Assembly (NCBI GenBank): GCA_024401275.1
Contig: JAKSLJ010000001.1
Location: 1 to 64,000 of the forward strand
Direction: 5' to 3'
From: Bacteroidaceae bacterium
GTDB lineage: Bacteria; Bacteroidota; Bacteroidia; Bacteroidales; Bacteroidaceae
DNA: 64,000 nt
Shown here: positions 29,892-48,016 of the stretch, one piece after another
Layout: each line of letters begins with the position of its first letter
Numbering within the stretch: position 1 is the first letter of the stretch
Made by a program: the position numbers and the translations under genes
The notes under the pieces: generated by a model
The model's input: only the letters and a program-made list of their open reading frames with translations
What the model was told of the DNA's origin: nothing
Database searches by the model: none

Positions 29892-31694
29892 ATGCAGACA
29901 CGCTGTCATCTCTCAGTGCTTGCTTATAAGCAGGCGGAGAAGTATGGAAAGAAGACCGCTTTCACTTATCAGAAGTGGGGCGAAAAGAAATGGGATACGA
30001 TTTCGTGGACAGAGGTCGCAAGCCGCGTAAAAGTTCTCTCTTATGCTATGCTTAGGGAGGGAATCGGAGTGCAGGAGAATATCGGTGTGTTCTCTCAGAA
30101 CTCCCTTGACTATATCCTCACCGATTTCGCGGCATGGGGAGTCCGTGCCGTGACCGTTCCGTTCTATGCTACAAGCAGTGAGCAGCAGATACACTTCATG
30201 ATAGACGATGCCCAGATACGCTATGTCTTCGTGGGCGAGCAGGAGCAGTATGACAAAGTCATCACTGTGATGCCTCTTTGCAATACCCTGCAGAAGGTTA
30301 TTGTTTACGACCGGCGCGTGAAGATAAATCCGGCTCATTCTGTATATCTTGACGATTTCATGGAGTTAGGAAAAAGAAATCCTGACGAGGCTAAGCTGAG
30401 CGAGATGCACGCTCAGGCAAGCAACGACGATATTGCCAACATACTCTACACATCTGGCACAACGGGCAATTCCAAGGGCGTTGTGCTTACCCACGGACAG
30501 GCTGCTGCTGCCCTGATAGCCAATGACGACGCCCTGGAGTTTGACGTTAAGCACGGCAGAGTGATGACTTTCCTCCCTATTACCCACATCTTCGAGCGCG
30601 GCTGGATGTACCTGAACCTTTCTGAAGGCGTTGAGGTCATTATCAATACCAATCCGAAGCTTATCCAGCAGTCGCTTCGCGAGCAGAACCCTACCTGCAT
30701 GTCGGCAGTGCCGCGCTTTTGGGAGAAGGTCTATATCGGTGTGATGGCGAAGATAGAAAACTCTTCCCCAATACAGAAGAAGCTCATGCTGGATGCCCTT
30801 GAGGTGGGCAGAAAGCACAATGTGGAGTATAAGCTCAAGGGAAAGCATCCGCCAATCGGCTTGCATCTTAAGTATAAGCTCTACGAAAAGACTCTCTTCT
30901 CTATCGTGAAGAAGCAGCTCGGACTGACCAATGCCCACTATTTCCCTACTGCCGGCTCGTTCGTCAGCGACCAGGTGGCGGAGTTCGTCCATTCGCTCGG
31001 CATCTATATGCTCGTGGGCTATGGACTTACGGAGACCTTCGCCACGGTTTCTTGTATGCGCGTAGGTCAGCCGAACACCATCGGCAGCGTAGGCAAACCG
31101 ATTAAGGGACTTGACATTAAGTTCGGCGAGAACGACGAGATTCTCCTCAAAGGTCCTACCATTACTCAGGGCTACTATAAGCGCGACGACCTCAACAAGG
31201 AATCGTTCACTGAGGACGGCTACTTCCGTACGGGCGACAGCGGCTATATGAAGGACGGCGAGCTCTACCTGAAGGAGCGCTTGAAGGAACTCTTCAAGAC
31301 TTCAAACGGAAAGTACATCGCGCCACAGATGATAGAGTCGAAGCTGCTTGTAGATAAGTATATCGAGCAGATCTCAATCATTGCAGATGACCGCAAGTTC
31401 GTCTCTGCCCTCATCGTTCCTGCTTTTGACATGCTTAAGAAGTATGCTGATGACAATAACATTCCGTATATGAGCAATGCGGATCTTTGTCGCAACGAGA
31501 AGATCAACGAAATGATTTTCGAGCGTCTCGACACACTCCAGCAGGGACTCGCCAGCTACGAGAAGGTAAAGAAGTTCGTGCTCCTTCCTGAGCCATTCTC
31601 CATGGAGAAGGGCGAGCTCACGAATACCCTCAAGATAAAGCGCCGCGTACTCCTTCAAAACTATAAGGACCAGATCGATGCGATGTATAATTAA
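29892..31694 (+). CDS. long-chain fatty acid-CoA ligase
   Basis: This gene encodes 600 residues from the ATG at 29892; a start at 29865 would begin within the promoter box. It activates long-chain fatty acids with ATP and CoA. AMP-binding motifs are YTSGTTGNSKGVVLTHG (P-loop-like), VGYGLTETFATVS, GYFRTGDSGYMKDG and LKERLKELFKTSNGKYIAP with the C-terminal hinge. No membrane segment is obvious; such enzymes associate with the inner membrane. It stands alone, with GC-rich repeat DNA (31697-31722) right after the stop. Confidence 0.92.
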   Translation: MQTRCHLSVLAYKQAEKYGKKTAFTYQKWGEKKWDTISWTEVASRVKVLSYAMLREGIGVQENIGVFSQNSLDYILTDFAAWGVRAVTVPFYATSSEQQIHFMIDDAQIRYVFVGEQEQYDKVITVMPLCNTLQKVIVYDRRVKINPAHSVYLDDFMELGKRNPDEAKLSEMHAQASNDDIANILYTSGTTGNSKGVVLTHGQAAAALIANDDALEFDVKHGRVMTFLPITHIFERGWMYLNLSEGVEVIINTNPKLIQQSLREQNPTCMSAVPRFWEKVYIGVMAKIENSSPIQKKLMLDALEVGRKHNVEYKLKGKHPPIGLHLKYKLYEKTLFSIVKKQLGLTNAHYFPTAGSFVSDQVAEFVHSLGIYMLVGYGLTETFATVSCMRVGQPNTIGSVGKPIKGLDIKFGENDEILLKGPTITQGYYKRDDLNKESFTEDGYFRTGDSGYMKDGELYLKERLKELFKTSNGKYIAPQMIESKLLVDKYIEQISIIADDRKFVSALIVPAFDMLKKYADDNNIPYMSNADLCRNEKINEMIFERLDTLQQGLASYEKVKKFVLLPEPFSMEKGELTNTLKIKRRVLLQNYKDQIDAMYN

Positions 31695-31766
31695 GGAGCC
31701 CCCTAGCCCCCGAAGGGGGAACTTTTAATAGATTTTATCCCTCAAAAAGGTAATTATAAAGACGAA

Positions 31767-32189
31767 GGAAGTAATATACTATTTGGCACAACGCTGATTA
31801 TAAACAAAAACCAAGATACACCCCTTGAAGAGTATGGGTGCTTGTCAGCACCTGATGTCATGCTTCCGCTTTGTTCTTATAAGAGCGAGCTCTTAACGCC
31901 CAAACCGAAAGCATAACATCACCTTCTTAACGAAGGCTTTCATACTCTTCAAGGCGATAAACCGAAGATAAACATTCGCGGTTCGATTTGGAGGGCATCT
32001 GTTGTTTTTTCTGTTTATCGCTTTTTGAAGGCTGGTGGCTTTCTGTTTGGCATTTTATACGAGAGCTTGCTCTCAGGAAAAAATGACGAACTGAAAAGAC
32101 ACGAAACTCCAGAGAGTTTCAACTGAAGACTTCAAAAAGGGTTTTTCTGGTTTTTGTCTAAAGAAATGCCCAATTGTATATCATTACCA
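31767..32189 (+). mobile_element. non-autonomous transposable element, copy 1 (423 bp)
   Basis: The ends GGAAGTAATATAC and GTATATCATTACC are imperfect inverted repeats, with similarity reaching about 48 bases inward (ACAAAAACCA on both arms). The element is flanked by a perfect 8-bp direct repeat, AAGACGAA, at 31759-31766 and 32190-32197. There is no transposase. The right half can form several stems (TTTCTGTT with AACTGAAA nearby, GAGAGC with GCTCTC, GAAACTC with GAGTTTC). Copies 2 and 3 are at 37276 and 47636. Confidence 0.9.
31823..31954 (+). mobile_element. nested 132-bp insert with cloverleaf folding potential (in copy 1)
   Basis: Perfect 14-base inverted ends, CCTTGAAGAGTATG and CATACTCTTCAAGG, enclose three further stems: GGTGC/GCACC, a long imperfect arm starting GATGT-ATGCTT and closing AAGCAT-ACATC with an inner AAGAGC/GCTCTT, and CCTTC/GAAGG. 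GATA stands on both sides (31815-31818 and 31956-31959). The interior is identical to 47692-47823. Confidence 0.8.
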
Positions 32190-32205
32190 AGACGAAATTA
32201 CGAGT

Positions 32206-32901
32206 ATGACAAACAATACATCACCAACAATAAGCGACAAATCACATAAAAGCTCCCCCTTGTGCTGCGCATCCTTTCGGACTCGCTGTCGCTCGCGACT
32301 GGCCTTCGGCAAGTTCGGGGGATGGGGGGCTTTATTTCTTCTTTTCTTACTCCTCGCCTGCAATTCGGAGAGCCAGTACGACACGTCGCATAAGTGCTAT
32401 CTTGTCATAGACAACGGCATGCACCTCGACGCTACCCTCATGAGCGCGATGAACAGCATGTCGCCGGGAGTCTTTTGCCGCGTATCCTACGGCAGGAAGA
32501 ACGGTGCGGAGACCTATTTTGTTGAGTCAAACCAGTTGAACGGAGAGACGAAGAAGCCCGTTTCCTCTTCATTTACGCTGAACGATGTCGATCGCCAGCG
32601 CACCAAACTGCTCGGAGTCTATAACGAGAGCGGACTGATTGTAGGTTTCGGCAACCTCGACAATCCCCCTGTTTTCTATGCCTACGATGCCGTATGTCCA
32701 AACTGTTACGAGCTGCACGACGTTGGCTGCTATACGCCGCTTCAGATGAACTCTTCCGGCATTGCCACCTGCTCCAACTGCCACCGCTCCTATAATCTCA
32801 ACACCGGCGGCAACATCACTGCCGGCGAACGAGGCAGGCAGCTCTATCGCTACCGCGCTACTACCAGCGGTCCGCAGGGCGTACTCATGGTGAGCAATTA
32901 G
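32206..32901 (+). CDS. probable lipoprotein with a four-cysteine Rieske-like domain; N-terminus derived from a repeat
   Basis: This gene encodes 231 residues. After about 42 unusual residues comes a lipoprotein signal (ALFLLFLLLACNS). The mature protein ends with CPNC (about 165) and CSNCHRSYNLNTGG, the layout of Bacteroidetes Rieske-like proteins with CxxC pairs in place of the His ligands. The first 42 residues (SPLCCASFRTRCRSRLAFGK) are the translation of the dispersed repeat at 32260-32313, also found at 7798. No other in-frame ATG is present, so the repeat has displaced or extended the original start. Expression is uncertain. Confidence 0.65.
   Translation: MTNNTSPTISDKSHKSSPLCCASFRTRCRSRLAFGKFGGWGALFLLFLLLACNSESQYDTSHKCYLVIDNGMHLDATLMSAMNSMSPGVFCRVSYGRKNGAETYFVESNQLNGETKKPVSSSFTLNDVDRQRTKLLGVYNESGLIVGFGNLDNPPVFYAYDAVCPNCYELHDVGCYTPLQMNSSGIATCSNCHRSYNLNTGGNITAGERGRQLYRYRATTSGPQGVLMVSN
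32260..32313. repeat. GC-rich dispersed repeat, copy 2 (inside a coding sequence)
   Basis: It matches the reverse complement of 7798-7852 in most positions. It forms codons 19-36 of the gene at 32206. Confidence 0.6.
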
Positions 32902-32929
32902 ACACTCCATAATTAACTATTTCTGTAAT

Positions 32930-33199
32930 ATGAGATATCCCAATATTATTCGTAACGTATTTGAGTATGCAGAAGTGATATGGCTTGGTAATGGCGTGGC
33001 ACATCGGATTACCAAGTGGGAGCCGCTTTTTTATGTTGGACTCATCTGTACGATTGTGGTTTTTGTAAGTTGGGTGGCTATAGTTTGTGATGATTACCAC
33101 ACTACCAGAAGCGTTCGAGAAACGATAAAGAAAAATCTAGGAGGTCTGTCGTTCATAGGTTTCAATGTTGTATTGATAGCATTCTTATTGTGCATTTAA
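32930..33199 (+). CDS. small membrane protein of unknown function
   Basis: The frame encodes 89 residues with two hydrophobic helices (PLFYVGLICTIVVFVSWVAI and LSFIGFNVVLIAFLLCI) and a basic loop between (TTRSVRETIKKN). It has no known family. It is followed 46 bases later by a palindromic repeat (33245) like those after other small genes in this region. Confidence 0.65.
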   Translation: MRYPNIIRNVFEYAEVIWLGNGVAHRITKWEPLFYVGLICTIVVFVSWVAIVCDDYHTTRSVRETIKKNLGGLSFIGFNVVLIAFLLCI

Positions 33200-33244
33200 T
33201 AAGGCATCTGAACCGCATCTATCCACACCCTTTTCAATCATATG

Positions 33245-33271
33245 TGAGTCAAGTGACGGTTCTCTAACTCA
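33245..33271. repeat. dispersed palindromic repeat (TGAGTCA type)
   Basis: Arms TGAGTCA and TAACTCA, core GTGACGGTTCTC. It lies 46 bases beyond the small membrane protein gene ending at 33199, on the way to the convergent acyltransferase gene. Confidence 0.75.
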
Positions 33272-33337
33272 ATTCCCTATGTAAAAAACGGCTACAAAAT
33301 TGAAGTGCTGATTGTTCATTGTCTTTGATAGTAATGG

Positions 33338-34291
33338 TCACAGACGTCTCAGCATGTTTCTGTTGAACAGCAACCGGCTGATGCCGGTTTTGTCCATTGC
33401 GTAACCAAGCATAAGCGATCCGGAGGTTGCAAAGACTATCACGGTCAGACTGTAGCTTATTACGTATCCGTTGTCTATAAATCCTCGTAATATATGCTTT
33501 GATAATAGTGTGAATAGCGGATGTAGTAAATATACAGGCAGAGTGTTGCCGCCTATATAATCAAGAACCCGACAAACTTTTGACGGAAATTTCTTCGTAC
33601 ACCAAACTAAGGATTCTATCGTGCAGACGCCGAGAATTATGCAGTAGTACGTCAGTTGCGAGGCATACTCATGATTGCAGACAATGCCGTAGAGCAATGT
33701 GACAAAGCCTATTGGTATCGCCACGAAAGCGCCCTTGAATATACTGCAAAAACGAATTCCGCAGTTTCTTGTTATCACTCCCGAAAAATAAGCGAGAGGA
33801 GACATTAGCCCCAGTAAAGGCGAACAATATGACATTAATACGCACAAGAACAAAGACACCCAAATCGCTCTGTCAATACCGACTTTGAGGGATAATCGGT
33901 GTGAAAGATAATACGTACTGCTACAAATTATCATTGTATGCAGATACCAATAAGGACCTAACGGCTTCAGAACAAGTTTCTCCAATATTACAGGGAGACT
34001 AAGTTCTGATACGCCATCTCTCACTGGAAGGAAATATGAAAGTATTATGTACGCCGTTTCAAAAACGGCATACATAATCAACATTCTTGTAATATAGTCA
34101 GCGAACTCCTTCCACGTTTTCCCAACATTAAAAAGATAACCCGTAATAAAGAGAAACAAAGGAACTACAAACGCCAAGATACCATTCTGAACATTAGGAT
34201 ATGAATCCTTGAATGGTGTGCAGTGAATGAGTATTACAAGGAAAATCAGAAAGCATCTGACGATGTTTATTGCCATTGATTCACTTTTCAT
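33338..34291 (-). CDS. acyltransferase family 3 membrane protein
   Basis: This gene encodes 317 residues with about nine or ten membrane helices. The start (INIVRCFLIFLVILIHCTPF) carries the conserved R and the active-site-like His of acyltransferase-3 proteins, which acetylate or succinylate surface sugars. FVVPLFLFITGYLF and TLPVYLLHPLF are typical inner motifs. It starts 9 bases after the gene 34301-35503 ends, so it is in the same operon as that secreted protein and the TPR regulator. Confidence 0.88.
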   Translation of the reverse strand: MKSESMAINIVRCFLIFLVILIHCTPFKDSYPNVQNGILAFVVPLFLFITGYLFNVGKTWKEFADYITRMLIMYAVFETAYIILSYFLPVRDGVSELSLPVILEKLVLKPLGPYWYLHTMIICSSTYYLSHRLSLKVGIDRAIWVSLFLCVLMSYCSPLLGLMSPLAYFSGVITRNCGIRFCSIFKGAFVAIPIGFVTLLYGIVCNHEYASQLTYYCIILGVCTIESLVWCTKKFPSKVCRVLDYIGGNTLPVYLLHPLFTLLSKHILRGFIDNGYVISYSLTVIVFATSGSLMLGYAMDKTGISRLLFNRNMLRRL

Positions 34292-34300
34292 TCCAATAAT

Positions 34301-35503
34301 CTACCTTATTATTATCTTTTTCTTACCATTAATATATACGCCTCTTTTCGGAACAGAGTGTAATCGGCGACCTTGTAGGTCGTACAGTGAGGAATCACTG
34401 CCCGTGCTCACTCTGCTTATGCCTGCTGAGGTTTCGCTGAATGGTGCTTGATAGACAAGCACGTTGCCTTTCCAGCAACGAAGCAAATAGGAAATGACTT
34501 CGTCGTCTTCGGACTGTAGGCAATGTTCCTTAAGGTGTTCATCTTTGCTTACTCCGACACCTTCTATCAGGTAGTCTTGCTCTATGCCGAAGTCCAGTAA
34601 TACTTCTGGCTCATTGTCCGCATTGACTATGTATATCTTGCGTCCCTCTTCGAATGCAATCTTGTCGGTTTTGAACTCTGGTGAACAGATCAGCTTGCAG
34701 GAGCGGTTGCCTATCACCGTATCTCCCTTAACTTCCACGGTATAAGAGTGCATAGCTTTGTGATTACTTATGGAAACGGCATGGCATTCCCATTTAGTAC
34801 CCTCCGTCAACATTCTCTGGTAAGGAATGCAGATCTCAAAGTCCGTATCTCCCGCATTTTCTCTGCTGTTCACTTTTCTGCCGCCCTTGGTTGAGAAGAT
34901 TACGTGGCTGATGTTAGTGGCTTTCGGGAGTCTCTTTTTGTTTGGAGCTTGGTTGCATTGGAAAAGTTCCATCGGACCGCCGATGTAGCCATAGCGATAG
35001 ATAATTCCATTCCACGAAGGCAGCAGAAGCATGTCGCCATTATATATGTAATATTGCAACGAATCTTTCTGCCAGTCTATATATTCCTCTCCGACGCTAC
35101 CATCTTGGAGACCATAGCGAATTGTTCCTCCATACTCAAACGCTGTGCTGAAATCATAGAGCATGCGTTCCTCTCCGACGGTGCCGTCATCCAATATCGG
35201 ACGAACGTAAACCATCGTGTCCATCTCGTTTCGGATGTAGCCTATCAGTATGGTATCTCCTTCAATGCCGTTTGTGTATTCCGCTTTGTCAAGAGGCATG
35301 TAGCCGCTTTCTGCACGTCCTAGTCGGTATCTGACGCTCTTTTCCTGTAAAGTTCCGTCTGGACCAGGTTCCGGTTCAAAGAATACTTCCCATTCAGAGC
35401 CTTCTGTCCATAGTTGGATAGAATCAAAGTTAGACACATTTTGTTTTTGCGCTTGTGCAAGTATCGGCACAATGACGCACAAGGAAATTAGTAATCTTTT
35501 CAT
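34301..35503 (-). CDS. secreted protein with T9SS-like C-terminal tail
   Basis: This gene encodes 400 residues. A signal peptide (MKRLLISLCVIVPILAQA) starts it. The middle is strand-rich. The last 25 or so residues (SLYDLQGRRLHSVPKRGVYI, then NGKKKIIIR) have the form of the short sorting tail often seen in Prevotella secreted proteins: a YDLQGR strand, a turn with GVYI, and a basic end. It is possibly exported through the type IX pathway. Start and upstream stop overlap (ATGA), tying it to the regulator at 35500. Confidence 0.8.
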   Translation of the reverse strand: MKRLLISLCVIVPILAQAQKQNVSNFDSIQLWTEGSEWEVFFEPEPGPDGTLQEKSVRYRLGRAESGYMPLDKAEYTNGIEGDTILIGYIRNEMDTMVYVRPILDDGTVGEERMLYDFSTAFEYGGTIRYGLQDGSVGEEYIDWQKDSLQYYIYNGDMLLLPSWNGIIYRYGYIGGPMELFQCNQAPNKKRLPKATNISHVIFSTKGGRKVNSRENAGDTDFEICIPYQRMLTEGTKWECHAVSISNHKAMHSYTVEVKGDTVIGNRSCKLICSPEFKTDKIAFEEGRKIYIVNADNEPEVLLDFGIEQDYLIEGVGVSKDEHLKEHCLQSEDDEVISYLLRCWKGNVLVYQAPFSETSAGISRVSTGSDSSLYDLQGRRLHSVPKRGVYINGKKKIIIR

Positions 35504-36855
35504 AACATATATTGGTTTAAGTAGTTTTCAATCGTTTGGTTCTGTACATCGCTGTCTAGTTTCTTCTTCATGCGTTGTTTCCTTACGGCTACGGAGGATG
35601 GTGCAATGCCATAGACATCAGCGAGAAGGGCGTTAGGTACACGCATCATGATCAGGCAGCAGAAGCGAACGTCCTCGTTTGTCAGAACAGGATGCCGTCT
35701 GCGCAGTCGGGAAGTGAACCCGGGAAGAACCATATCCGTATTCTTCTCTATTAGTTCCCATGATGATTCCTCGAGGTTTATGTGACCGCTTTTGCCGCGA
35801 TTGGCATTCAGGATAGGTAGGATTATGGCATATAGATGTTCATAATAGAGCTTCTGTAACTTTATGTTTTCCTCGCGCACCTGGTTCTCGCTTGCTTTGG
35901 CAAGCTCTGACAGTCGCATGGCCTCAAGTTCGCGGGTGTGTGCGACTCTTGCCTTCCGACGATAGAAAAGTCCGGCTATGGAGGCAGCGAGCAGCAAGAG
36001 TAACACTATAATAATAATGAAAAACAATTTCGCTCGTTCCGCCTCGTGTTCAGCACGTTTAGACTCCATCTGCCGTTCATGCTGAAGAGACTGTATCTTA
36101 GCCATGTTCTGAGAGTTTTCGTCCTTGGCGATACTGTCAGTTATGTCCATCAGACTGACGGCACTCTCGTAAGCATCTTTCCATCTCTCTGTGTCCTCGT
36201 AACGAAACATCATCAATCGGGTCAGTTCTGCTTTATTGTAGATACCGCTTTCTTCAATGTACGTCGGCAGAAGCATCATCATCTCCTCGTATCTCTCTTG
36301 TAGGTTGAGACCATAGAGGTAGGTAATACGATAGAGGTCAGAGTTCACCACTTCCGGAAAGATACGCATCGCTTCTTTCGTGAAAAACGACACGCTGTCG
36401 CCGTTGCCAATCGCCATGTTTATCTGGGCAAGTAATAGGAGTGTTTGAGCGCGGAAGTCAAGCGTATCGCTCCGAGTCAGTTCGTAAGCCCTGTGGGCAT
36501 TAAGTGAAGCGCTGTCTGTTTTCCCCTCAACTAGATTTGTCGTTGCCAGCCTTTGCAGAGCCTCTGCCATCAGAGCTTGACCATGGCGCTTGTCGTCGTG
36601 GCAGATGGCTTCCGCTTCATTGAGCATTTTCTGCTGGTAGATTTTTTGCAGGTCTGTGAGATTCCTCTTTTCGTATTCCGTGGAAACTTTCGAATATAGG
36701 TGGAAACGCTTTTCCCCGTCGCCAGACTGCTGACATTCGTCCAGTTCATTAAGTAATGTGACCAATTCTGAATCCTCTTCATTAAGAGGAGCATTGCTTA
36801 CTTTGGTACAGCATGCAAACAAGACGACGAATGTAATAGGAAATAGATTCTTCAT
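35500..36855 (-). CDS. membrane-anchored TPR regulator with C-terminal helix-turn-helix
   Basis: I start at 36855 (MKNLFPITFVVLFACCTKVS), giving 451 residues; the 38 upstream codons would cover the promoter. The lipobox-like FACC is near residue 15. TPR helices follow (about 25-270), then a membrane helix (LFFIIIIVLLLLLAASIAGLF, about 285-305), a helical linker (TRELEAMRLSELAKASENQV) and a C-terminal HTH (LTNEDVRFCCLIMMRVPNAL, then GIAPSSVAVRKQRMKKKL). Like the proteins at 18423 and 37727. The operon order suggests control of its own downstream secreted protein and acyltransferase. Confidence 0.85.
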   Translation of the reverse strand: MKNLFPITFVVLFACCTKVSNAPLNEEDSELVTLLNELDECQQSGDGEKRFHLYSKVSTEYEKRNLTDLQKIYQQKMLNEAEAICHDDKRHGQALMAEALQRLATTNLVEGKTDSASLNAHRAYELTRSDTLDFRAQTLLLLAQINMAIGNGDSVSFFTKEAMRIFPEVVNSDLYRITYLYGLNLQERYEEMMMLLPTYIEESGIYNKAELTRLMMFRYEDTERWKDAYESAVSLMDITDSIAKDENSQNMAKIQSLQHERQMESKRAEHEAERAKLFFIIIIVLLLLLAASIAGLFYRRKARVAHTRELEAMRLSELAKASENQVREENIKLQKLYYEHLYAIILPILNANRGKSGHINLEESSWELIEKNTDMVLPGFTSRLRRRHPVLTNEDVRFCCLIMMRVPNALLADVYGIAPSSVAVRKQRMKKKLDSDVQNQTIENYLNQYML

Positions 36856-36872
36856 GTTCTGAAATTTTGCTG

Positions 36873-36880
36873 CAAAGTTA
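36873..36880 (-). promoter_or_regulatory. -7 promoter box of the TPR regulator operon
   Basis: On the minus strand TAACTTTG is followed after 17 bases by the start codon at 36855. A TTG lies about 18 bases upstream, within an AT-rich stretch. Confidence 0.65.
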
Positions 36881-37100
36881 CTAATAAAAATACATTTACA
36901 AGCATCCTTCTGATAAATGTAAATGCCTGTAAATGTAGTTTCTGTGTGTATAGTGCTGATAAACAGCAATATGGCTCTCTCTATATTGTATATTATGTTG
37001 AGAGCCGAAAACTCGTAAGGGGTGCCACTTTTGTGGCAAGGAAGAGACTGGCTCGAACGCAGAACTTGATTGTCTGCTTGACTCGGGTTAATAGACTTTG

Positions 37101-37125
37101 TGAGTTAAGGGACAGCTCTGACTCA
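37101..37125. repeat. dispersed palindromic repeat (TGAGTTA/TGACTCA type, worn)
   Basis: TGAGTTA and TGACTCA enclose AGGGACAGCTC. One arm has changed. It lies in the 871-bp gap between the two regulator genes, together with the hairpins at 37149 and 37193, the element at 37276 and the hairpin at 37648. I see no gene there. Confidence 0.6.
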
Positions 37126-37148
37126 TTATGGCGACAAAGTTAAGAAAA

Positions 37149-37180
37149 GGGGGCGTGTCAAAAGTAACTGACACACCCCC
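37149..37180. terminator. GC-rich hairpin, possible terminator
   Basis: GGGGGCGTGTCA (37149-37160) pairs with TGACACACCCCC (37169-37180) with one mismatch and an 8-base loop. A second pair, TCCTACATC (37193-37201) with GATGTAGGA (37242-37250), follows. It does not lie just after a known gene, so this may be part of a repeat. Confidence 0.45.
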
Positions 37181-37275
37181 TTCCTACACCAATCCTACAT
37201 CGCCGCTGACACCCGATAACCACTGGGGTTCGCTGAGATTTGATGTAGGAATGTAGGATTTTGCTTGAAAAACTA

Positions 37276-37553
37276 GGTAATGATAATTGGGCATTTCTTT
37301 AGACAAAAACAATAAAAACCCTTTTTGAAGTCTTCAGTTGAAACTCTCTGGAGTTTCGTGTCTTTCTGTTCGTCATTTTCTCCTGAGAGCTAGCTCTCGT
37401 ATAAAATGCCAAACAGAAACCCACCAGCCTTCAAAAAGCGATAAACAGAAAAAAAACAACAGATGCCCTCCTAATCGAACCGCGAATGTTTATCTTCGGT
37501 TTATCTTGGTTTTTGTTTATAATCAGCGTTGTGCCAAATAGTATATTACTTCC
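37276..37553 (-). mobile_element. non-autonomous transposable element, copy 2 (278 bp, no nested insert)
   Basis: This copy is inverted relative to copies 1 and 3. Its ends are GGTAATGATA and TATTACTTCC. It is flanked by a perfect 8-bp direct repeat, AAAAACTA (37268-37275 and 37554-37561). Where copies 1 and 3 carry the 132-bp cloverleaf insert, this copy runs straight through with a single GATA, so it shows the empty site. Confidence 0.9.
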
Positions 37554-37647
37554 AAAAACTATTTTTTATTTTGTGGTCAACAAAATCGTTAAACTACAGT
37601 GCGACAACTTTCATTCTAGGGCGAGGAAACCTGTCATCCTATACGAG

Positions 37648-37680
37648 GAAAACTTTCCTCCCTAGGCGAGGAAAGTTTTC
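37648..37680. terminator. hairpin near the end of the TPR regulator gene at 37727
   Basis: GAAAACTTTCCTC (37648-37660) pairs with GAGGAAAGTTTTC (37668-37680), 13 bp with a 7-base loop, with more GCGAGGAAA units beside it. It lies 47 bases beyond the stop of the minus-strand gene, a suitable place for its terminator. Confidence 0.55.
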
Positions 37681-37726
37681 TTTTCTTTGAGCAAAAAGTT
37701 CCCCCTTAACAATTTTTGAAGTCTTT

Positions 37727-38926
37727 TCAATACAGTAGCATCAGTTGCCTGTCGAAGTCAACTGCTTTGCCTTCTACACCGTAGATTCTCTTCAGCAGTC
37801 GGCTGCGGGTAAGGGAAACCTCTGGAAATCGGCAGTCCATTATTGTTGCTATCTCGCCTGGTTTGAACTTCAATCGGGCGAGAATGCAGATTCTTAGCTC
37901 GCGCTCGGTGACGTTATGCTTGTTGAGTAGGATGAACATCTGCGGAAGGTGCTTCTTTGTGAATCGGATAAGTTCCTTCCAGTGCTTATCTGTTGGATGT
38001 TCTGTGATGTGAGTTATGTAGTATTCAAACGTGCTTCTTATTGGAGACGATTGTATCTCGTCCTCGATCATTGCCGTGTTCTTGATGTTTAGTTGTTGCT
38101 CGTATTGAGACACTCGGCTTTTTAGTTCGCTGATAGACTGTTCCCTTTGCGCTATTTCCTCATCCAGTTCCATACGTTGGCGCTCAAAGAGTTGGTCCTT
38201 GCTTTCAAGAAGTACAACCTTCTCTTCAAGCAGGGCGTTCATATCCTCCATTTCGTTCTTCAGCTGGGCTTTCTCCCTTTCGTAACGCTCGGTAGCGTTT
38301 CTGAGTTTCCTTTCGTTTGCCTTTCGGGATTTCCTGTCTATTAATATCGAACTGCCGGCTATCAGGATGATAATGATGATTGCGGCTATAAGCCACCATT
38401 GCAATGTGAGGATGTCTGCGGATTTCCGTTCAGATTCTTCTGTTTTCTTTTGTGATAGCGATTCGTTTGCTTCATACGACAGCAAAGCGTATTTTGCAGT
38501 GGAATCGGCAATGCCCTTCTTGTCGTAGAGTAGGCTAAGACCACCGTAAACCAACATTCTGATATACGGATCAACATCATTGTTGTTGCATTTCTGGAAA
38601 AGAATCTGCGCGGAATCAGGCTTGTTTACATTAATATAATAAATGCCTTTGATGTAATAGTATGATTCATAGCCCGGCGAAACTACTTCGCTGCTGGCTA
38701 TTCCCGATTGCAGTTCGTAGAAGTCCATGCATTGCTTGGCTTTGTCGTATTGCCCAAGCTTCAGGAAATGCTTTATGCTGTCAAGCATCTGTGTAGATAC
38801 TTTCGCGGAATCCGGATAGGATTCCTTAGCCATGCTATCGTGCTGCTTCTGCTCCTCGTTGCCAGTGGAGTTTGTGCAGCAGACCAATGAGAGGCAGAGT
38901 ATCAATATACACAGTAGTTTGTTCAT
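37727..38926 (-). CDS. membrane-anchored TPR regulator with C-terminal helix-turn-helix
   Basis: This gene encodes 399 residues. A lipoprotein signal (MNKLLCILILCLSLVCCTNS) precedes a shorter helical-repeat part (about 30-150), a membrane helix (WWLIAAIIIIILIAGSSILI, about 177-196), a long coiled coil (about 200-290) and a C-terminal HTH (ITHITEHPTDKHWKELI, then VTERELRICILARLKFKPGE and DCRFPEVSLTRSRLLKRIYG). It is the smallest of three such regulators in the window. Unlike the other two it has no co-directed partner downstream, so its target may be the divergent Sel1-type gene at 39165 (inference). Confidence 0.82.
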   Translation of the reverse strand: MNKLLCILILCLSLVCCTNSTGNEEQKQHDSMAKESYPDSAKVSTQMLDSIKHFLKLGQYDKAKQCMDFYELQSGIASSEVVSPGYESYYYIKGIYYINVNKPDSAQILFQKCNNNDVDPYIRMLVYGGLSLLYDKKGIADSTAKYALLSYEANESLSQKKTEESERKSADILTLQWWLIAAIIIIILIAGSSILIDRKSRKANERKLRNATERYEREKAQLKNEMEDMNALLEEKVVLLESKDQLFERQRMELDEEIAQREQSISELKSRVSQYEQQLNIKNTAMIEDEIQSSPIRSTFEYYITHITEHPTDKHWKELIRFTKKHLPQMFILLNKHNVTERELRICILARLKFKPGEIATIMDCRFPEVSLTRSRLLKRIYGVEGKAVDFDRQLMLLY

Positions 38927-38959
38927 TCTTCAGTGATAGGATTTGTTTGTTTTGCCATG

Positions 38960-38967
38960 CAAATTTA
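38960..38967 (-). promoter_or_regulatory. -7 promoter box of the TPR regulator at 37727
   Basis: On the minus strand TAAATTTG stands 33 bases before the start codon at 38926. It is back-to-back with the promoter at 39106. Confidence 0.6.
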
Positions 38968-39105
38968 CACATTTTGATTCCTTTACTGAAATTTCTTGCA
39001 AAAAATAATTTTCAAAAATTTCGTGCAAGTAAGCTTAATGTGTTGATTATCATTATTTTATGCCTTTGAAAATAATTCGCAGAAAATTCTTATTGCCGAT
39101 ATTTC

Positions 39106-39136
39106 TTGTAGGAAACAACTAAAATGATTAACTTTG
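39106..39136 (+). promoter_or_regulatory. promoter of the Sel1-repeat gene
   Basis: TTG (39106-39108), a 20-base spacer and TAACTTTG (39129-39136) make a full Bacteroidetes promoter 28 bases before the ATG at 39165. Confidence 0.8.
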
Positions 39137-39164
39137 TGGCAGATTTCTAAACAATAAAGAAGCT

Positions 39165-40280
39165 ATGCATAAAAACATTCCTTACTGTTTCTTATTTCTC
39201 ATTTGTATAATTACAAGTTGTCAGTTTGTAGAATTGACACCGGAAGAGAAAGCTGCTCGTTATGATGAGGCAATGTCTTATTTCTATGAAGGCAACGGCA
39301 CTCCTAAAAACGAGAAAGAAGCTTTAAGGCGACTCCGCCTACTTGAAAAACAAGGATGCTTGGAGGCAGGCTGCAAACTTGCGGAATTGTTTTTTCAAAA
39401 TCATCTTCTCTCGTATTTGGAGATAGACTATGAGAAGTTCAAAGAATATGCTGATCAAGGTGAACCTCTGGCCATGTATGGGAGAAAGCTTACAGGAGGA
39501 CTTCTAGATATAAATGATTCCGAGATAGGCGATGAAAATGACTATGCTCAGAAGACATTTCGTGCATTGATGAAGATTGCCAAAGATAATGAACCGAACA
39601 TAAAACCTAGTGTGCCGAAGAGTTATTTATGTGATATTTGGAAGGCAATAGGTGATTGTTATGAATATGGTGAAGGCGTTGAAAAGAACAACTCGTTGGC
39701 GTTCCAATGGCATCTCAAAGCCGCAGAGCATGGGAATATGCATGCGCAATATTCTTTAGCACATTTTTATGAATGGAAAAATGAAGATGAGAAAACAAAA
39801 AGAATTGTGGAGTGGAGTAGCATGGCAGCAGAAAAAGGTGATCCAATGGCACAATGTGACTGGGGCTATTTCCATGTGACTGGATATGGAGGAGTGCCGA
39901 AAGATTCCAGTGAGGCTGTAAAGTGGTATATCAAAGCTGCAGAGCAAGATTATTCGACTGCATTATATCGCTTGGGAAGATGTTATGATAAAGGTCGTGG
40001 CGTGGAGCAGAATTATTATTTGGCATACAAATGCTTTCGCAAAGCAGCGGAGTATAATAATCCAAGTGCGCTCTATTTCATTGGCGAGTACTATCGTCTG
40101 GGCATTTGGGTAAAGAAGGATATGTACAAGGCTAAGAAGTGGTATATGAAAGCGGCTCATGAAGATTTGGATGATGCCTATGTAAAGTTGAACAAATATT
40201 TCAAAGGATGGAAAAATGATAAGAATTGGAAACCGCGTGCCAAACTTTGTGGAACTTTATCAAGTTTAGGCGAATACTAG
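39165..40280 (+). CDS. Sel1-like repeat lipoprotein
   Basis: This gene encodes 371 residues. The signal ends in a lipobox (ICIITSCQ, Cys near 19). From about residue 150 there are at least four Sel1 repeats of about 36 residues (IGDCYEYGEGVEKNNSLAFQ, DWGYFHVTGYGGVPKDSSEA, LGRCYDKGRGVEQNYYLAYK, IGEYYRLGIWVKKDMYKAKK). Sel1 repeats mediate protein-protein contacts, in many species in secretion or signalling. It is divergent from the TPR regulator at 37727. Confidence 0.9.
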   Translation: MHKNIPYCFLFLICIITSCQFVELTPEEKAARYDEAMSYFYEGNGTPKNEKEALRRLRLLEKQGCLEAGCKLAELFFQNHLLSYLEIDYEKFKEYADQGEPLAMYGRKLTGGLLDINDSEIGDENDYAQKTFRALMKIAKDNEPNIKPSVPKSYLCDIWKAIGDCYEYGEGVEKNNSLAFQWHLKAAEHGNMHAQYSLAHFYEWKNEDEKTKRIVEWSSMAAEKGDPMAQCDWGYFHVTGYGGVPKDSSEAVKWYIKAAEQDYSTALYRLGRCYDKGRGVEQNYYLAYKCFRKAAEYNNPSALYFIGEYYRLGIWVKKDMYKAKKWYMKAAHEDLDDAYVKLNKYFKGWKNDKNWKPRAKLCGTLSSLGEY

Positions 40281-40336
40281 TCAATTTGGATTCTATGAAT
40301 CTGTATATCTCTAATGATAATATAAATACCTTTATT

Positions 40337-41299
40337 ATGGCAAGAGGAAAAAGAACCTGCAGGATTTTGAAGGAGATACGCAGGCAGATAGCAGAAGCTA
40401 ACGACATAGAGTTCGTTACTTCCGAATGTAAGTTCCAGGGCGATTGTCTCGGCACATGCCCTAAGTGCGAGGCGGAAGTGCGTTATCTTGAGGAGCAACT
40501 TGAACGCCGCAGAATGCTTGGCAAGGCTGTCTTACTGGCAGGAATCTCCATGAATGTGCTAACCTCAAATGCTATGACAGCTGTTGTGCCAACTGCTGAC
40601 TATCAGAGAGTTGACACTACTATCCTAAATGATGATGACAGATTGTTTGGCGATGTATCATCAGAACACCAACCTACATTTCCTGGCTTAAATAAGTATC
40701 TTGCTGATAATCTCCGCTATCCGGACACTGATAAAGAAGGAAGAGTTGTTGTCAGTTTTTTCGTGGAAACAGACGGCAGCCTGACTGACATAACCGTCGT
40801 GAGAGGCATAGCAAAGGAACTTGACGAGGAAGCCGTAAGGGTGATTAAGTCTATGCCTAAATGGATTCCCGGAGAGAAGAATGGACATTTGGCAAGAATC
40901 AGATTCACACTACCTATAGTTTTCAAAAAAGGCAGGACGGTAGAGAAACCTAAAATGGAGGCTGCACAGGAAGTGAAGGTGTATGATCTTGTAGGAGATG
41001 TACCAGCACAATCGCCTTCATTTCCTGGAGGTTATGATGCTTTGAAAAAGTTCATTGATGAGAATCTCCGCTATCCGCATCCTGATTTCTGTGGAGAAGG
41101 AAGAGTGGTTGTTACCTTTACCGTTGAGATAGACGGCAGCCTGACTGACATAAGGGTCGTAAGAAGCATAGCAAAAGAGCTTGACGAAGAAGCCGTACGA
41201 CTCGTAAAGTCCATGCCTAAATGGATTCCGGGACAACATGTTGAGGGGAAGCCGGGAAGAATGAAATACACACTCCCAATAGCCTTTAAACTGATGTAG
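40337..41299 (+). CDS. TonB-family protein with two TonB C-terminal domains and a Cys-rich start
   Basis: I start at 40337 (MARGKRTCRILKEIRRQIAE), the usual start of this Bacteroidetes group; an upstream ATG at 40226 overlaps the previous gene. Of 320 residues, the first 60 have CKFQGDCLGTCPKC, a likely metal- or disulfide-forming set, and there is a hydrophobic segment (AVLLAGISMNVLTSNAMTAV). Two TonB C-terminal domains (about 105-200 and 225-318) follow, each with RVVVxFxVExDGSLTDIxVV and SMPKWIPG; their DNA is about 80 percent alike, so the second is a recent duplication. TonB domains pass energy to outer-membrane transporters, but no proline-rich spacer is present here. Confidence 0.85.
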   Translation: MARGKRTCRILKEIRRQIAEANDIEFVTSECKFQGDCLGTCPKCEAEVRYLEEQLERRRMLGKAVLLAGISMNVLTSNAMTAVVPTADYQRVDTTILNDDDRLFGDVSSEHQPTFPGLNKYLADNLRYPDTDKEGRVVVSFFVETDGSLTDITVVRGIAKELDEEAVRVIKSMPKWIPGEKNGHLARIRFTLPIVFKKGRTVEKPKMEAAQEVKVYDLVGDVPAQSPSFPGGYDALKKFIDENLRYPHPDFCGEGRVVVTFTVEIDGSLTDIRVVRSIAKELDEEAVRLVKSMPKWIPGQHVEGKPGRMKYTLPIAFKLM

Positions 41300-41303
41300 T
41301 TAT

Positions 41304-41330
41304 TGAGTCAAGGGACGGATCTCTAACTCA
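41304..41330. repeat. dispersed palindromic repeat (TGAGTCA type)
   Basis: Arms TGAGTCA and TAACTCA, core GGGACGGATCTC. It begins 5 bases after the stop codon of the TonB-family gene. Confidence 0.75.
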
Positions 41331-41400
41331 ATTCATAATAGATGTGAACAGAAGAAGTGTCTCTTGATTCCCTTTGAAAACCGATAATTAACATTGCAAA

Positions 41401-42285
41401 ATGATTAAAAGAATTATAGAATATACATTCCTGGCAGTATGTCTTCTGTGCATAGCATCATGCAAAAAAGAAATTGTGGCAGACGATATATATGCATATT
41501 GGGCTCTACAGAATGAAGTGGAGTTCAAGGGTGTTGTATTTACGCATCTTAAGTTCACTGATGATGAAAAATGGGGTAGCTGGGTAGATCCTGTTACGAG
41601 TGATACTATCTATCATTACAATAAGTTGACTGTCACTGGCGATTCCCTTTGCCTTACGGATGACAATGGTAAAGAGTTGATTTGTAGAATAAATGAACTG
41701 CATGACAGCACCCTTGTAATAACAGATTTCCCTGGTGCCAACAAGAGATTGGAATTCAAAAGAATTGGTGATGTGAGACGATACCTTGGAGACGATAAGC
41801 CGCTGTTCAAGTACGGAATGTGTAGTAGATGCTCCATAGAAGCTAAGTGCTTTCCCAAAGACAGTCTTGACATCAATATTAAGTCTTATTACTCCCTGAA
41901 TAAGTATAATTACGAAGGCAAGAGCCAAATCCTAAGTAACGAGCAAGTGCAACAGGCTCGCAAGCTCCTTGAGAACTACATTGTGAATAAAGACTATGTA
42001 GAGGAATGTATGAATGGAATAGACGATGCCTATCCATTTAATGAGTATTTCAGGCAATATTCCGGTTGTATCGTAGATGGCGAACTGATAGTAAATGTCT
42101 CTCTTCTTACTCGAACGGATACAATGTTTAGTCCTTTCCCTTACATGGAACTTAAAGAATATATGTCACAGATGTCAGATGGCGGTCCTCAATTTGCAAG
42201 AGCAAAGATAAACCTCTCAAAGCAGAAGGTTTTGTTCTTTATGACGAACGGACCGCACATGATGAGTCAAGAGACGAAACTCTAA
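41401..42285 (+). CDS. lipoprotein of unknown function; C-terminus formed by a palindromic repeat
   Basis: This gene encodes 294 residues with a lipoprotein signal (LLCIASCKK, Cys near 21). The body is strand-rich with one CSRCSIEAKC cluster near 140. No family is recognised. Its last codons, MSQETKL and the stop TAA, lie within the palindromic repeat at 42263-42289, so the original end has been replaced or the gene uses the repeat as its stop. Confidence 0.75.
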   Translation: MIKRIIEYTFLAVCLLCIASCKKEIVADDIYAYWALQNEVEFKGVVFTHLKFTDDEKWGSWVDPVTSDTIYHYNKLTVTGDSLCLTDDNGKELICRINELHDSTLVITDFPGANKRLEFKRIGDVRRYLGDDKPLFKYGMCSRCSIEAKCFPKDSLDINIKSYYSLNKYNYEGKSQILSNEQVQQARKLLENYIVNKDYVEECMNGIDDAYPFNEYFRQYSGCIVDGELIVNVSLLTRTDTMFSPFPYMELKEYMSQMSDGGPQFARAKINLSKQKVLFFMTNGPHMMSQETKL

Positions 42286-42289
42286 CTCA
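42263..42289. repeat. dispersed palindromic repeat overlapping a stop codon
   Basis: Arms TGAGTCA and TAACTCA, core AGAGACGAAACTC. The stop codon of the lipoprotein gene (42283-42285) lies in it. Confidence 0.75.
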
Positions 42290-42319
42290 TAAACTATCCT
42301 TAAACATGAAACTACAAAC

Positions 42320-42802
42320 ATGAGATCAACCCTTAACAACATATTAAGAGACAGAATACTTCTTTTGTGTATTCTGGATCTATTGGTGATTTTCTGGATT
42401 ATATGGTATGAAAGTAGAATACAATACGAGCCACCTCTAGATTATAATGATATTATTCTCCCATTAATCCCAGAAACATACAATGCCATCATAGCTACTA
42501 TTATCGCAAATATAATAGTGCTTATAGTTGAAACAATAAGGCTTTGTCGCCAAAGAACAGAAAAAGGAAATCTGAAAAGCATAGTTGCATATTCCGTCTT
42601 CTCAATATGTTGCATGGCATGGGGATATTTTCATATCTCATCAAGGGTCAGAATTGGAGTTGTAAATCATACAAATCTTTACATCTCACTATGTGTTATT
42701 CATATTATTAGTTGCATAGTATATGTATCGAGATTATTGTCAAAACGGGATGCAAGTCCTAAAACAAGTGAAAGTTATGAAGATGTCATCATTGATCGTT
42801 AG
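42320..42802 (+). CDS. membrane protein of unknown function (four helices)
   Basis: The frame encodes 160 residues with four hydrophobic helices (ILLLCILDLLVIFWIIWY, YNAIIATIIANIIVLIVETI, IVAYSVFSICCMAWGYFHI and LYISLCVIHIISCIVYVS) and a polar C-terminus. I recognise no family. It stands between a lipoprotein gene and an immunity-like gene, in an AT-rich stretch where each gene has a different style. Confidence 0.7.
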   Translation: MRSTLNNILRDRILLLCILDLLVIFWIIWYESRIQYEPPLDYNDIILPLIPETYNAIIATIIANIIVLIVETIRLCRQRTEKGNLKSIVAYSVFSICCMAWGYFHISSRVRIGVVNHTNLYISLCVIHIISCIVYVSRLLSKRDASPKTSESYEDVIIDR

Positions 42803-42836
42803 TTTCAAAATAACATACTGAATAGGTTAAATAAAT

Positions 42837-43226
42837 ATGAATAGATTTTTGTTATTATACATACTATTGCCGTGTTTATTCGGCTGCAAGAACGGACAAA
42901 GACAACAGGTAAACTATGTAAGTGAGGGCAATCGTATTGATAGCATTTCATATACAGGCAAAGAATATGGTACAAACTTTGGTCCAACGAGAATAAAAGA
43001 AGGAATGGTCCCAAACGAAGAGTGTGCTGCAAGAATCGCATACGAATATGTCTCTGCTGTCTTTGGAGAGGAATGTGCGAATAAAGAACAGCCATATAGC
43101 ATTTCATTGATTAATGAACAAGTCTGGGATATTGCTGGTTGTCCTCCAAAGGGTGAAGGAGGGGCATTTCATATTGCGATAGAGAAAGCGACGGGCAAGG
43201 TTCAATATATTATTCATGGAAAATAA
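42837..43226 (+). CDS. lipoprotein with NTF2-type immunity-like domain
   Basis: This gene encodes 129 residues. A lipoprotein signal (LLPCLFGCKN, Cys near 17) leads a domain with GMVPNEECAARIAYEYVSAV, then EQVWDIAGCPP, GAFHIAIEKATGKVQYIIHGK, which matches the NTF2-fold immunity family (Imm-NTF2-2) as I remember it: VPD-ETAIKIAE, W-V-EG-LP, then G-VAYAEI-K-DG-I. Such proteins neutralise peptidoglycan- or other toxins of neighbours. No toxin gene is beside it. A second, broken copy of its end lies at 46950-46985. Confidence 0.75.
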   Translation: MNRFLLLYILLPCLFGCKNGQRQQVNYVSEGNRIDSISYTGKEYGTNFGPTRIKEGMVPNEECAARIAYEYVSAVFGEECANKEQPYSISLINEQVWDIAGCPPKGEGGAFHIAIEKATGKVQYIIHGK

Positions 43227-43239
43227 AGCTTGAAGGATT

Positions 43240-44502: not shown

Positions 44503-44510
44503 CAAAAGCG

Positions 44511-44535
44511 TGAAGGAGAACCGTCCCTTGACTCA
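44511..44535. repeat. dispersed palindromic repeat, inverted and worn
   Basis: On the minus strand it reads TGAGTCAAGGGACGGTTCTC, with a damaged second arm. It begins 8 bases after the serpin stop. Confidence 0.6.
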
Positions 44536-44539
44536 ATGG

Positions 44540-44566
44540 TTGTCACCATTGTCACGATTGTCACGA
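44540..44566. repeat. three tandem 9-base units TTGTCACSA
   Basis: TTGTCACCA, TTGTCACGA and TTGTCACGA follow one another exactly; more TGTCA units come after. It lies in the 275-bp gap after the serpin gene, with the promoter at 44675. Confidence 0.6.
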
Positions 44567-44674
44567 CTGTCAATTGTCATTAACGATTTTCAGCTCACAA
44601 CATGTGCGAGTTTATAGGTAAATGGGCAAAAATGCCGATAATTTACCCCATTGACAGAGAAATAAATCGGATAA

Positions 44675-44706
44675 TTTGCCCGTTTTGATTTAAAAGCATA
44701 CCTTTG
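44675..44706 (+). promoter_or_regulatory. promoter of the membrane protein gene at 44778
   Basis: TTTG (44675-44678), a 20-base spacer and TACCTTTG (44699-44706). An inverted pair GATAATTTAC/TAAATGGGC nearby may form part of a control site. Confidence 0.75.
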
Positions 44707-44777
44707 CAGTGTGTCAAGGTGATACAGTAACATAATAAGAATCTTTAAGTGGTAAAACGGCTCCTACTTCAGACACT

Positions 44778-45251: not shown

Positions 45252-45255
45252 CTCA
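45229..45255. repeat. dispersed palindromic repeat overlapping a stop codon
   Basis: Arms TGAGTCA and TGACTCA, core AGTGACGGTTCTC. The stop codon at 45249-45251 lies in it. Confidence 0.8.
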
Positions 45256-45313
45256 CGCAAATAAGTGTATCCCTGGGCTTACGCCGCCCCCTTGTTAAGG
45301 GGCTCTCAAATCT

Positions 45314-45745: not shown

Positions 45746-45783
45746 AATCAATAAAAGATCACCCTTTAAGACTACGCTAATAA

Positions 45784-46920: not shown

Positions 46921-46948
46921 TTAAAAAGACAAACAACAGCGGGTAAAT

Positions 46949-46984
46949 GTATTGAGAATGCGACGGGTAAGGTTCAATTTATTA
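46949..46984 (+). pseudogene. remnant of the NTF2-type immunity gene end
   Basis: The bases translate as about 12 residues, IENATGKVQFIM, matching IEKATGKVQYII near the end of the gene at 42837-43226. At 46985 the dispersed palindrome begins. This is a leftover of a second copy. Confidence 0.6.
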
Positions 46985-47011: not shown

Positions 47012-47036
47012 AATGTAGAAATAATCGCGGTAATAT

Positions 47037-47093: not shown

Positions 47094-47643
47094 ATGAACC
47101 AAGAGAACAAGGACATACTGAAGGGATTGATTGAGAAACATAAGGAACTCGGAATCTCTGACCAGATAGACTATGAGAAGTTCTATCTGTACTCTCTCAT
47201 TACCCATTCTACCGCAATAGAGGGGTCTACTGTAACCGAAGTGGAAGCGCAACTGCTCTTTGATGAGGGTATCACCAGCAGCAAGCGTACCATGATGGAA
47301 CAGATGATGAATCTTGACCTCAAGGATGCATACGAGTATCGCAGGAGAAGTGGTCGATAAACAAGAATTAATTGCAGAAATGGCCGGTAAATGGTCGATA
47401 AAACCATATTTGGCCGATAAATTGGCCAATATTCTGATATTTTTGGCCGATAAAGAAACAGTGACGACCGAAGCGATAACCAGTAAGTTCGGTTTCTCTG
47501 CTACCTCTGCAAAACGCTATCTTCGCAAACTTGCGGATTTGGGGTATATTGAAGCTAGGGGAGGCAACCGCAACAGGTCATACAATTCTGTTACTGGAAA
47601 ATGGACAGGTACCGTGCTCTCTGCCCATAATAAATGGAAGTAA
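47094..47643 (+). pseudogene. Fic family protein lacking its catalytic core
   Basis: The first frame (47094-47360) gives YEKFYLYSLITHSTAIEGST, then VTEVEAQLLFDEG and MEQMMNLDLKDAYEYRR, the standard N-terminal part of a Bacteroidetes Fic protein. A second frame (about 47340-47643) gives the C-terminal winged-helix region, with KPYLADKLANILIFLADKE and TSAKRYLRKLADLGYIEARG. The region between, with the HPFxxGNGR motif (about 150-200 residues), is missing and the two parts are in different frames. It is not functional as AMP transferase. The element at 47636 is inserted at its 3' end. Confidence 0.8.
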
Positions 47644-47985
47644 TATACTATTTGGCACAACGCTGATTATAAACAAAAACCAAGATAACCCCCTTGAAGA
47701 GTATGGGTGCTTGTCAGCACCTGATGTCATGCTTCCGCTTTGTTCTTATAAGAGCGAGCTCTTAACGCCCAAACCGAAAGCATAACATCACCTTCTTAAC
47801 GAAGGCTTTCATACTCTTCAAGGCGATAAACCGAAGATAAACATTCGCGGTTCGATTAGGAGGGCATCTGTTTTTTTTTCTGTTTATCGCTTTTTGAAGG
47901 CTGGTGGGTTTATCCCTGCATTATAGCCGCCCCTTATCAAGGGGCTCTAAATGTCAAAAGAAATGCCGAATTGTATATCATTACC
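47636..47985 (+). mobile_element. non-autonomous transposable element, copy 3 (350 bp)
   Basis: Ends GGAAGTAATATAC and GTATATCATTACC, flanked by a perfect 8-bp direct repeat, TAATAAAT (47628-47635 and 47986-47993). The left half matches copy 1 almost exactly, including the nested cloverleaf insert. The right half has been replaced after GGCTGGTGGG by other DNA with a CCCCTTATCAAGGGG hairpin. Confidence 0.9.
47692..47823 (+). mobile_element. nested 132-bp insert with cloverleaf folding potential (in copy 3)
   Basis: Outer stem CCTTGAAGAGTATG (47692-47705) with CATACTCTTCAAGG (47810-47823). Arms: GGTGC/GCACC (47706-47710 and 47717-47721), a 20-base imperfect arm (47723-47742 with 47771-47790, containing AAGAGC/GCTCTT), and CCTTC/GAAGG (47791-47795 and 47801-47805). 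GATA flanks it on both sides (47684-47687 and 47825-47828). Confidence 0.8.
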
Positions 47986-48016
47986 TAATAAATAACTAAA
48001 AATAACAAACAACACT

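Follow-up and report, generated by a model that had tools for sequence, protein, structure and literature searches.

Short transposable elements with IS1595-type ends and divergent folded modules in a Bacteroidaceae genome

The first 64,000 nucleotides of contig JAKSLJ010000001.1 from a Bacteroidaceae bacterium (assembly GCA_024401275.1), referred to here as the window, hold three copies of a short element that contains no transposase. Which enzyme moves such an element, and what does its folded interior represent? A first-pass annotation had placed each copy between a different pair of perfect 8-bp direct repeats, and all three pairs were found exact. Its coordinates hold for copies 2 and 3, whereas copy 1 ends at 32188 and not at 32189, which is the first base of the right-hand repeat. 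The features, with the evidence for each, are as follows.

31759..31766, no strand: 8-bp target duplication AAGACGAA, left of copy 1 (exact repeat)
31767..32188, plus strand: complete, non-autonomous element copy 1 of 422 bp (ends and duplication; further copies in its own genome)
31767..31788, plus strand: left end of copy 1, GGAAGTAATATACTATTTGGCA (end-pattern match)
31822..31955, minus strand (favoured strand): folded module of class A, copy 1 (RNA model match of 133.4 bits, to a model partly built from copy 1, and covariation)
32021..32139, plus strand (favoured strand): folded module of class C, copy 1, with two arms (folding, module scan and strand energies)
32167..32188, minus strand: right end of copy 1, GGTAATGATATACAATTGGGCA (end-pattern match)
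32189..32196, no strand: 8-bp target duplication AAGACGAA, right of copy 1 (exact repeat)
37268..37275, no strand: 8-bp target duplication AAAAACTA, copy 2 (exact repeat)
37276..37553, minus strand: element copy 2, in inverted orientation, without module A and with four bases deleted from the GGTAATG end (ends and duplication; loss read from the sequence)
37321..37438, minus strand: folded module of class C, copy 2 (module scan and strand energies)
37554..37561, no strand: 8-bp target duplication AAAAACTA, copy 2 (exact repeat)
47628..47635, no strand: 8-bp target duplication TAATAAAT, copy 3 (exact repeat)
47636..47985, plus strand: element copy 3, module C mostly replaced (ends and duplication)
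47691..47824, minus strand: folded module of class A, copy 3 (RNA model match)
47986..47993, no strand: 8-bp target duplication TAATAAAT, copy 3 (exact repeat)

Transposition within and beyond the window

Two random 8-mers drawn from the window agree with a probability of ~2.7e-5, and the end pattern, with at most 3 mismatches allowed, occurs 5 times in the window and in none of 100 shuffles. The 22-bp right end differs by a single base between copies 1 and 3, and the GGTAATG end of copy 2 lacks four bases (GGTAATGATAATTGGGCA versus GGTAATGATATACAATTGGGCA). The interiors also differ, copy 1 possessing two modules, copy 2 being devoid of the left module and copy 3 of most of the right one. The sequence of copy 2 fits a clean deletion of module A, bounded by two TATC repeats.

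In the genome to which the window belongs (G000, 3.2 Mb, 91% complete), a slightly looser end pattern returns 19 matches at up to 1 mismatch versus 0 for a reversed-pattern control, and 35 versus 2 at up to 3 mismatches. With 1 mismatch or none, this looser pattern occurs in 12 of 299 genus genomes, G000 included. DNA-level matching of the full element reports hits in 2 of 100 genomes, namely G000 itself and G037, the latter with three short weak pieces, and at blastn sensitivity the whole element has no match in plasmid or phage collections. Among 38 end pairs in the fetched DNA (distinct, convergent, 40-1000 bp apart, with up to 4 mismatches together), the 8-bp duplication is exact in 12 and has one mismatch in 8, as compared with 0 exact and 3 one-mismatch agreements in 4864 tests on displaced 8-mers; this count leaves out copy 2, because of its broken end, and a 1620-bp element that exceeds the length bound, both of which have exact duplications. 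The positions bordering the 8-mer agree poorly (each in 1 to 6 of 12), which fixes the length of the duplication at 8 bp. The insertion targets are mostly AT-rich. With different perfect 8-bp duplications at many loci, the real transposition proposed in the first-pass annotation is supported; movement was probably in trans, since the elements contain no transposase. One further locus (L006), where the end has 4 mismatches and the repeat 1, was dropped as chance.

G000 also contains a second MITE family, 170 bp long and palindromic, with similar ends and other contents (L031, L033, L034 and L036, on contigs C7 and C9); four of its copies have different exact 8-bp duplications. In L002 (contig C19 of G000), at positions 1450-1500, an element copy directly adjoins the remnant of another IS1595-type end, which suggests a nested insertion.

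Candidate transposases and related elements

Three transposase profiles, those of IS1595, ISL3 and IS256, were tested against the genomes and records that carry the ends. An 8-bp duplication and GG ends are features of the ISL3 family, from which an ISL3-family transposase had initially been proposed as the mover. ISL3 matches (PF01610), however, occur in just 2 of the 14 genomes or records, in G343 and as a 52-residue fragment in G000, and these loci display neither a GG end of the element kind nor a fitting 8-bp repeat within ~1.4 kb of flank per side, a span that a longer ISL3 element could escape. The proposal was therefore not borne out, and we regard an ISL3 enzyme as a highly improbable mover. 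IS256 (PF00872) was rejected as well, with 0 of the 14.

IS1595 transposases (PF12762) are found in 3 of the same 14 genomes or records, with fitting ends at 2 of the 3 loci, the third (L145) being devoid of ends of the element kind. Across the genus, 61 of 398 genomes carry a PF12762 match. Among the best-scoring 40 of 69 listed matches, GG inverted ends and an exact 8-bp repeat surround the transposase in 19, a raw count, uncorrected for chance agreement, from a search in which GG was required and the MITE pattern was not used; the other 21 of these 40 gave no end pair. Good ends for which a matching duplication was not found occur in L187, L191 and L199, and L178 shows a spurious second end pair (13/22). 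At 12 of the 19 loci, one end lies within 3 mismatches of the end pattern GGNNNYNATATACNNTTNGRCA, which had been broadened after related ends turned up in virus records. Examples of IS1595 element ends are GGGAACTATATACCTGTTGGCA, GGTAATGATATACCTGTTGGCA, and GGCAACTATATACAATTAGACC. When compared with the nearest among 20 IS1595 ends, the right end of copy 1 is identical at 18 of 22 positions, a value reached by 0 of 20000 random GG windows, and the left end at 16 of 22, a value reached by 15 of 20000. None of the fetched IS1595 elements has ends identical to those of the window.

The 18 of these 19 IS1595 elements that were examined measure 1.9-4.8 kb and each encode at least 1 further ORF of at least 80 residues besides the transposase, and the two transposases scanned comprise the domains PF12762 and PF12760 (DDE and zinc ribbon). 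The passages on the IS1595 family in PMC8101967 describe 8-bp duplications, a DDE_Tnp_IS1595 domain, and a zinc finger except in the IS1016 group; they also assign a terminal GG to the related eukaryotic Merlin elements, a feature that Merlin and the window elements have in common. The 8-bp duplications are likewise common to IS1595-family transposons and the window elements. In contrast to the IS1595 relatives, with their DDE_Tnp_IS1595 domain, zinc ribbon and further ORFs, the window elements have no transposase, and their interior is non-coding and folded. No PF12762 match was found in G000, which is 91% complete, so the partner may lie in the missing part, may have been lost, or may be a relative outside the profile, and the elements are probably moved in trans. 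Many such ends occur also in G136 and G346, where no IS1595 transposase was found. The window elements are probably IS1595-type MITEs, and an IS1595 enzyme is their likely mover.

Ends of this type also bound other cargo. In L074 (G257:C4:98800-102400), positions 994-2613 form a 1620-bp element with IS1595-type ends and the duplication TTTTCAAT; its two main ORFs have no Pfam match at E 0.01, and no transposase was recognised. Its protein with the motif LTESxLHxxxKES carries LTESQLHRVIKES, and ORFs of this type are found in L144 and in 3 of 18 IS1595 elements (L181, L188 and L196, the first 60 residues being inspected per ORF). A 724-bp element in L057 (G270, positions 1501-2224; the same place as L295) has such ends, a duplication matching at 7 of 8 positions, and a Y1 (RAYT-like) transposase gene inside. 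In four IMG/VR virus records of up to 387 kb (L096, L097, L098 and L099), such ends are located between ORFs, beside terminator-like hairpins, and no matching duplication was recognised. By reading, the ORF between two such ends in L099 looks like a BspA-type LRR protein.

Architecture and conservation of the folded modules

The element (423 nt as first delimited) folds as one nested structure, with z of -9.4 and -11.4 on the two strands. The interior of copy 1 consists of two modules facing outward from the centre, A on the minus strand and C on the plus strand. A module is closed by a stem of ~10-14 bp and has three arms, or two in class C; one arm is long and carries an internal loop close to the tip. 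The central-arm internal loop is kept in most class A and D modules as GGGCGTT on one side and TAAG on the other. The plan of the whole element repeats that of the module, an outer stem being followed by three arms, two of them modules. Read outward, the order is 5' GTTTATCG or similar, the module, and GGTTTTTGT or similar 3'.

Scanning the fetched DNA for GTTTATCG, a closing stem and GTTTTTGT returned 33 distinct modules, sorted by motifs into six classes plus one unassigned; class D of G136, which has another 5' flank, is left out of the 33. As the scan required the closing stem, this stem is built into the set, which holds neither for the arms nor for the strand bias. Loci with two scanned modules are divergent in 14 out of 14 cases (among 20 loci listed) and always combine two different classes, the pairings seen being A+C, B+C, A+E, A+F, and A+G. 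Six further loci with two model matches, read on the better strand, are also divergent. G346 and G351 are not independent, because they are apparently one assembly, with the same contig numbers and places. In L264, the two modules are unusually far apart. In L008 and L009, the tip hairpin of module C (about 1560-1600) holds an inserted palindrome, CCCTGAGCTTGTCGAAGGG, which we take to be a widely dispersed bacterial repeat.

Searches with known RNA families return little. Rfam 15 reports no match at family threshold in window positions 31000-48200 (one match at E 0.66 lies outside the elements) and 4 sub-threshold matches in 9 module loci (best E 0.021); one of these 4, a ylbH leader match (E 0.22), overlaps a module end in L273. 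ARAGORN reports 0 tRNA or tmRNA genes in 8 loci. The 7 hits of a viral-contig search with the conserved central-arm motif proved to be the same stretch in all 7 contigs, without a tip hairpin, and were judged chance.

An RNA model built from six class A/D modules identifies modules in 16 of 398 genus genomes, G000 included (at most 8 candidates scored per genome, with stricter filters). An alignment of class A/D modules comprises 24 members, truncated ones among them; 90.9% of its cells pair, and both-side changes occur at 29 of 52 base pairs (131 cells), counted on the structure of one member, L001, and without regard to the relatedness of the sequences. It was made with the model, whose structure does not include the closing stem and one of the side arms, and it leans to the central arm and to the remaining side arm. 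None of 500 shuffles reaches 29 pairs and 131 cells, and slid controls reach at most 10 pairs and 28 cells, while the count of further pair types is reached by 2 of 500 shuffles. In classes A and D, to which these counts refer, the fold is kept by compensatory changes.

The two strands of a module are not equivalent. In 33 out of 33 modules, the RNA energy is lower, by 2.1 to 21.6 kcal/mol, for the outward strand, the one that begins with GTTTATCG. At mismatches inside helices common to both strands, G-U occurs 65 times versus 14 for A-C (class A 25:4, B 6:3, C 5:0, E 20:4, G 6:2, unassigned 3:1, F 0:0), counts that ignore kinship, copies within a class being related. This bias towards G-U pairs suggests that the fold is selected as a putative outward RNA.

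Do the modules and the ends form a single element? In G000, at least one IS1595-type end is found at 9 of 10 listed module loci, a count that leaves out the fragments L012 and L018; the end at L009 is decayed, and L010 is without one. In G136, ends are present at 4 of 6 class-D loci. With ~700 bp of flank per side, ends are clear at 1 of 8 module loci of G351 and at 0 of the 6 fetched from G312, and the other module genomes (G306, G437, and others) show no end above a weak score. Modules and ends are thus separable, since the module loci of G312, G306, G437, and others show no clear end. The module pair may be an older element whose ends have decayed, or else an independent family that MITEs have captured. 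Two module loci of G437 (L287 and L275) are bounded by other inverted ends, TTAGGCAGGGCTTTGACAAAAACC, and no duplication was recognised there.

Possible action and known systems

We consider it quite probable that the elements are MITEs with ends of the IS1595 kind, moved in trans, and that they carry divergent structured modules selected as outward RNA. A different relation would hold if the modules formed a mobile structured RNA family that stands by itself, with a specific function and perhaps a separate way of moving, and that IS1595-type MITEs have merely captured. The paired or single modules without a clear IS1595-type end (6 of 6 in G312, 7 of 8 in G351, and those of G306, G437, and others) fit such a family, as do the other inverted ends of G437 and the conserved internal loop of the central arm. 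However, no gene is seen travelling with the modules, and an exact 8-bp repeat with GG ends is present at 0 of the 39 loci L255-L293, in a search confined to exact repeats and GG ends. Old MITEs with decayed ends would moreover look alike, and weak end-like matches occur in L280 and L289. A free-standing family is possible in our judgement, if somewhat doubtful.

The structure might instead act as DNA, nested hairpins from single-stranded DNA being recognised by the transposase or by a host protein. Whole elements are indeed nested inverted repeats, and in the sister 170-bp MITE, of other sequence, the two folded copies are simple palindromes too. Yet selection on DNA would leave both strands nearly alike, whereas the outward strand is the better one in every module and G-U far outnumbers A-C; the favoured strand also switches between the halves of one element. 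This makes action as DNA unlikely. A REP-like nature of the modules, with a Y1 (RAYT) transposase spreading them as palindromes, is hardly credible: the head-to-head hairpin pairs do resemble BIMEs, and the Y1 gene of L057 lies inside an element with such ends, but REPs are not known to have target duplications, and no Y1 match was found in 5 of 8 module-bearing genomes (G351, G312, G306, G437 and G296, three of these five being only 67-80% complete). REPs are also small, at 20-40 bp in the description given in PMC3733652.

If the elements are IS1595-type MITEs whose modules are selected as RNA, the following action can be proposed. An IS1595-family transposase (DDE and zinc ribbon) encoded elsewhere would cut at the GG/CC ends and insert the element, for the most part in AT-rich intergenic DNA, with a stagger of 8 bp. 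The elements bring no gene of their own, their content being the divergent pair of structured modules. Transcription from either neighbour would meet the antisense module first and then the sense module, which would fold in the RNA and be followed by a U-rich tract. Every transcript would thereby gain a large 3'-side fold, whichever the direction of insertion, and such a two-way transcript-end or stability element could render insertion between genes tolerable. Gene orientation gives the transcript-end role no support, the neighbours being tandem at 13 loci, divergent at 8, and convergent at 9 (30 loci, out of 38 scored, at which a neighbour was called on each side, neighbours being mechanical ORFs of at least 60 residues). 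In class A, ~10 bases separate the stem from the U-tract. A terminator scan was unremarkable, with 2 sites versus 0.9 expected, one of them outside the element. Both the two-way transcript-end role and the transcription of the modules are inferences.

A mobile element with a cargo of paired multi-arm folds under clear compensatory selection is unusual, and it raises the question of why a selfish element keeps the fold, and not the sequence, of its outward RNA. Outward-facing cloverleaf-like pairs with preserved base pairing point to a mobile structured RNA. Tentatively, with a confidence just short of even, we propose that it represents a new class, in which back-to-back cloverleaf-like RNAs, of different classes in several combinations, are dispersed over Prevotella-type genomes partly by IS1595-type transposition and act in whichever transcript leaves the element. 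The modules provide a concrete RNA family to probe. The IS1595 link, in turn, gives ends for finding transposase-less cargo elements in Bacteroidales and virus records.

How do these elements compare with known repeats? The bcr1 element of Bacillus cereus is a small, non-autonomous MITE with a stable RNA fold, and REP/BIME repeats are paired inverted palindromes between genes, in which they are like the window modules. The latter differ from REP/BIME repeats as much larger multi-arm units, with 8-bp duplications on the MITE-borne copies and no consistent link to Y1. The palindromic candidate RNAs of human-microbiome Bacteroidetes, as presented in the main text of PMC8040213, are structured on both strands, with examples of 80-132 bp, and are mostly or entirely from Bacteroidetes; two overlapping Prevotella-only candidates are mentioned, terminators are predicted in 230 of 250 palindromic candidates, and this main text contains no word beginning transpos or mobile. 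The modules are alike in their both-strand structure, and the tables of PMC8040213 may include some of them; among titles and abstract openings, no paper was recognised as being about these elements. A further group consists of ERIC, Correia/NEMIS, CIR, and RUP, which the parts of PMC2229807 devoted to them describe as bacterial MITEs with stable RNA folds, likewise small and non-autonomous, with highly base-paired transcripts and, in several families, duplications. ERIC, Correia/NEMIS, RUP, and bcr1 form long stem-loops, and CIR has two arms and a linker. MITEs with structured transcripts are already known. The novelty lies inside the element, in its divergent pair of folded multi-arm modules: unlike ERIC, NEMIS, CIR, and RUP, the window elements carry two different multi-arm modules back to back, with classes in several combinations.
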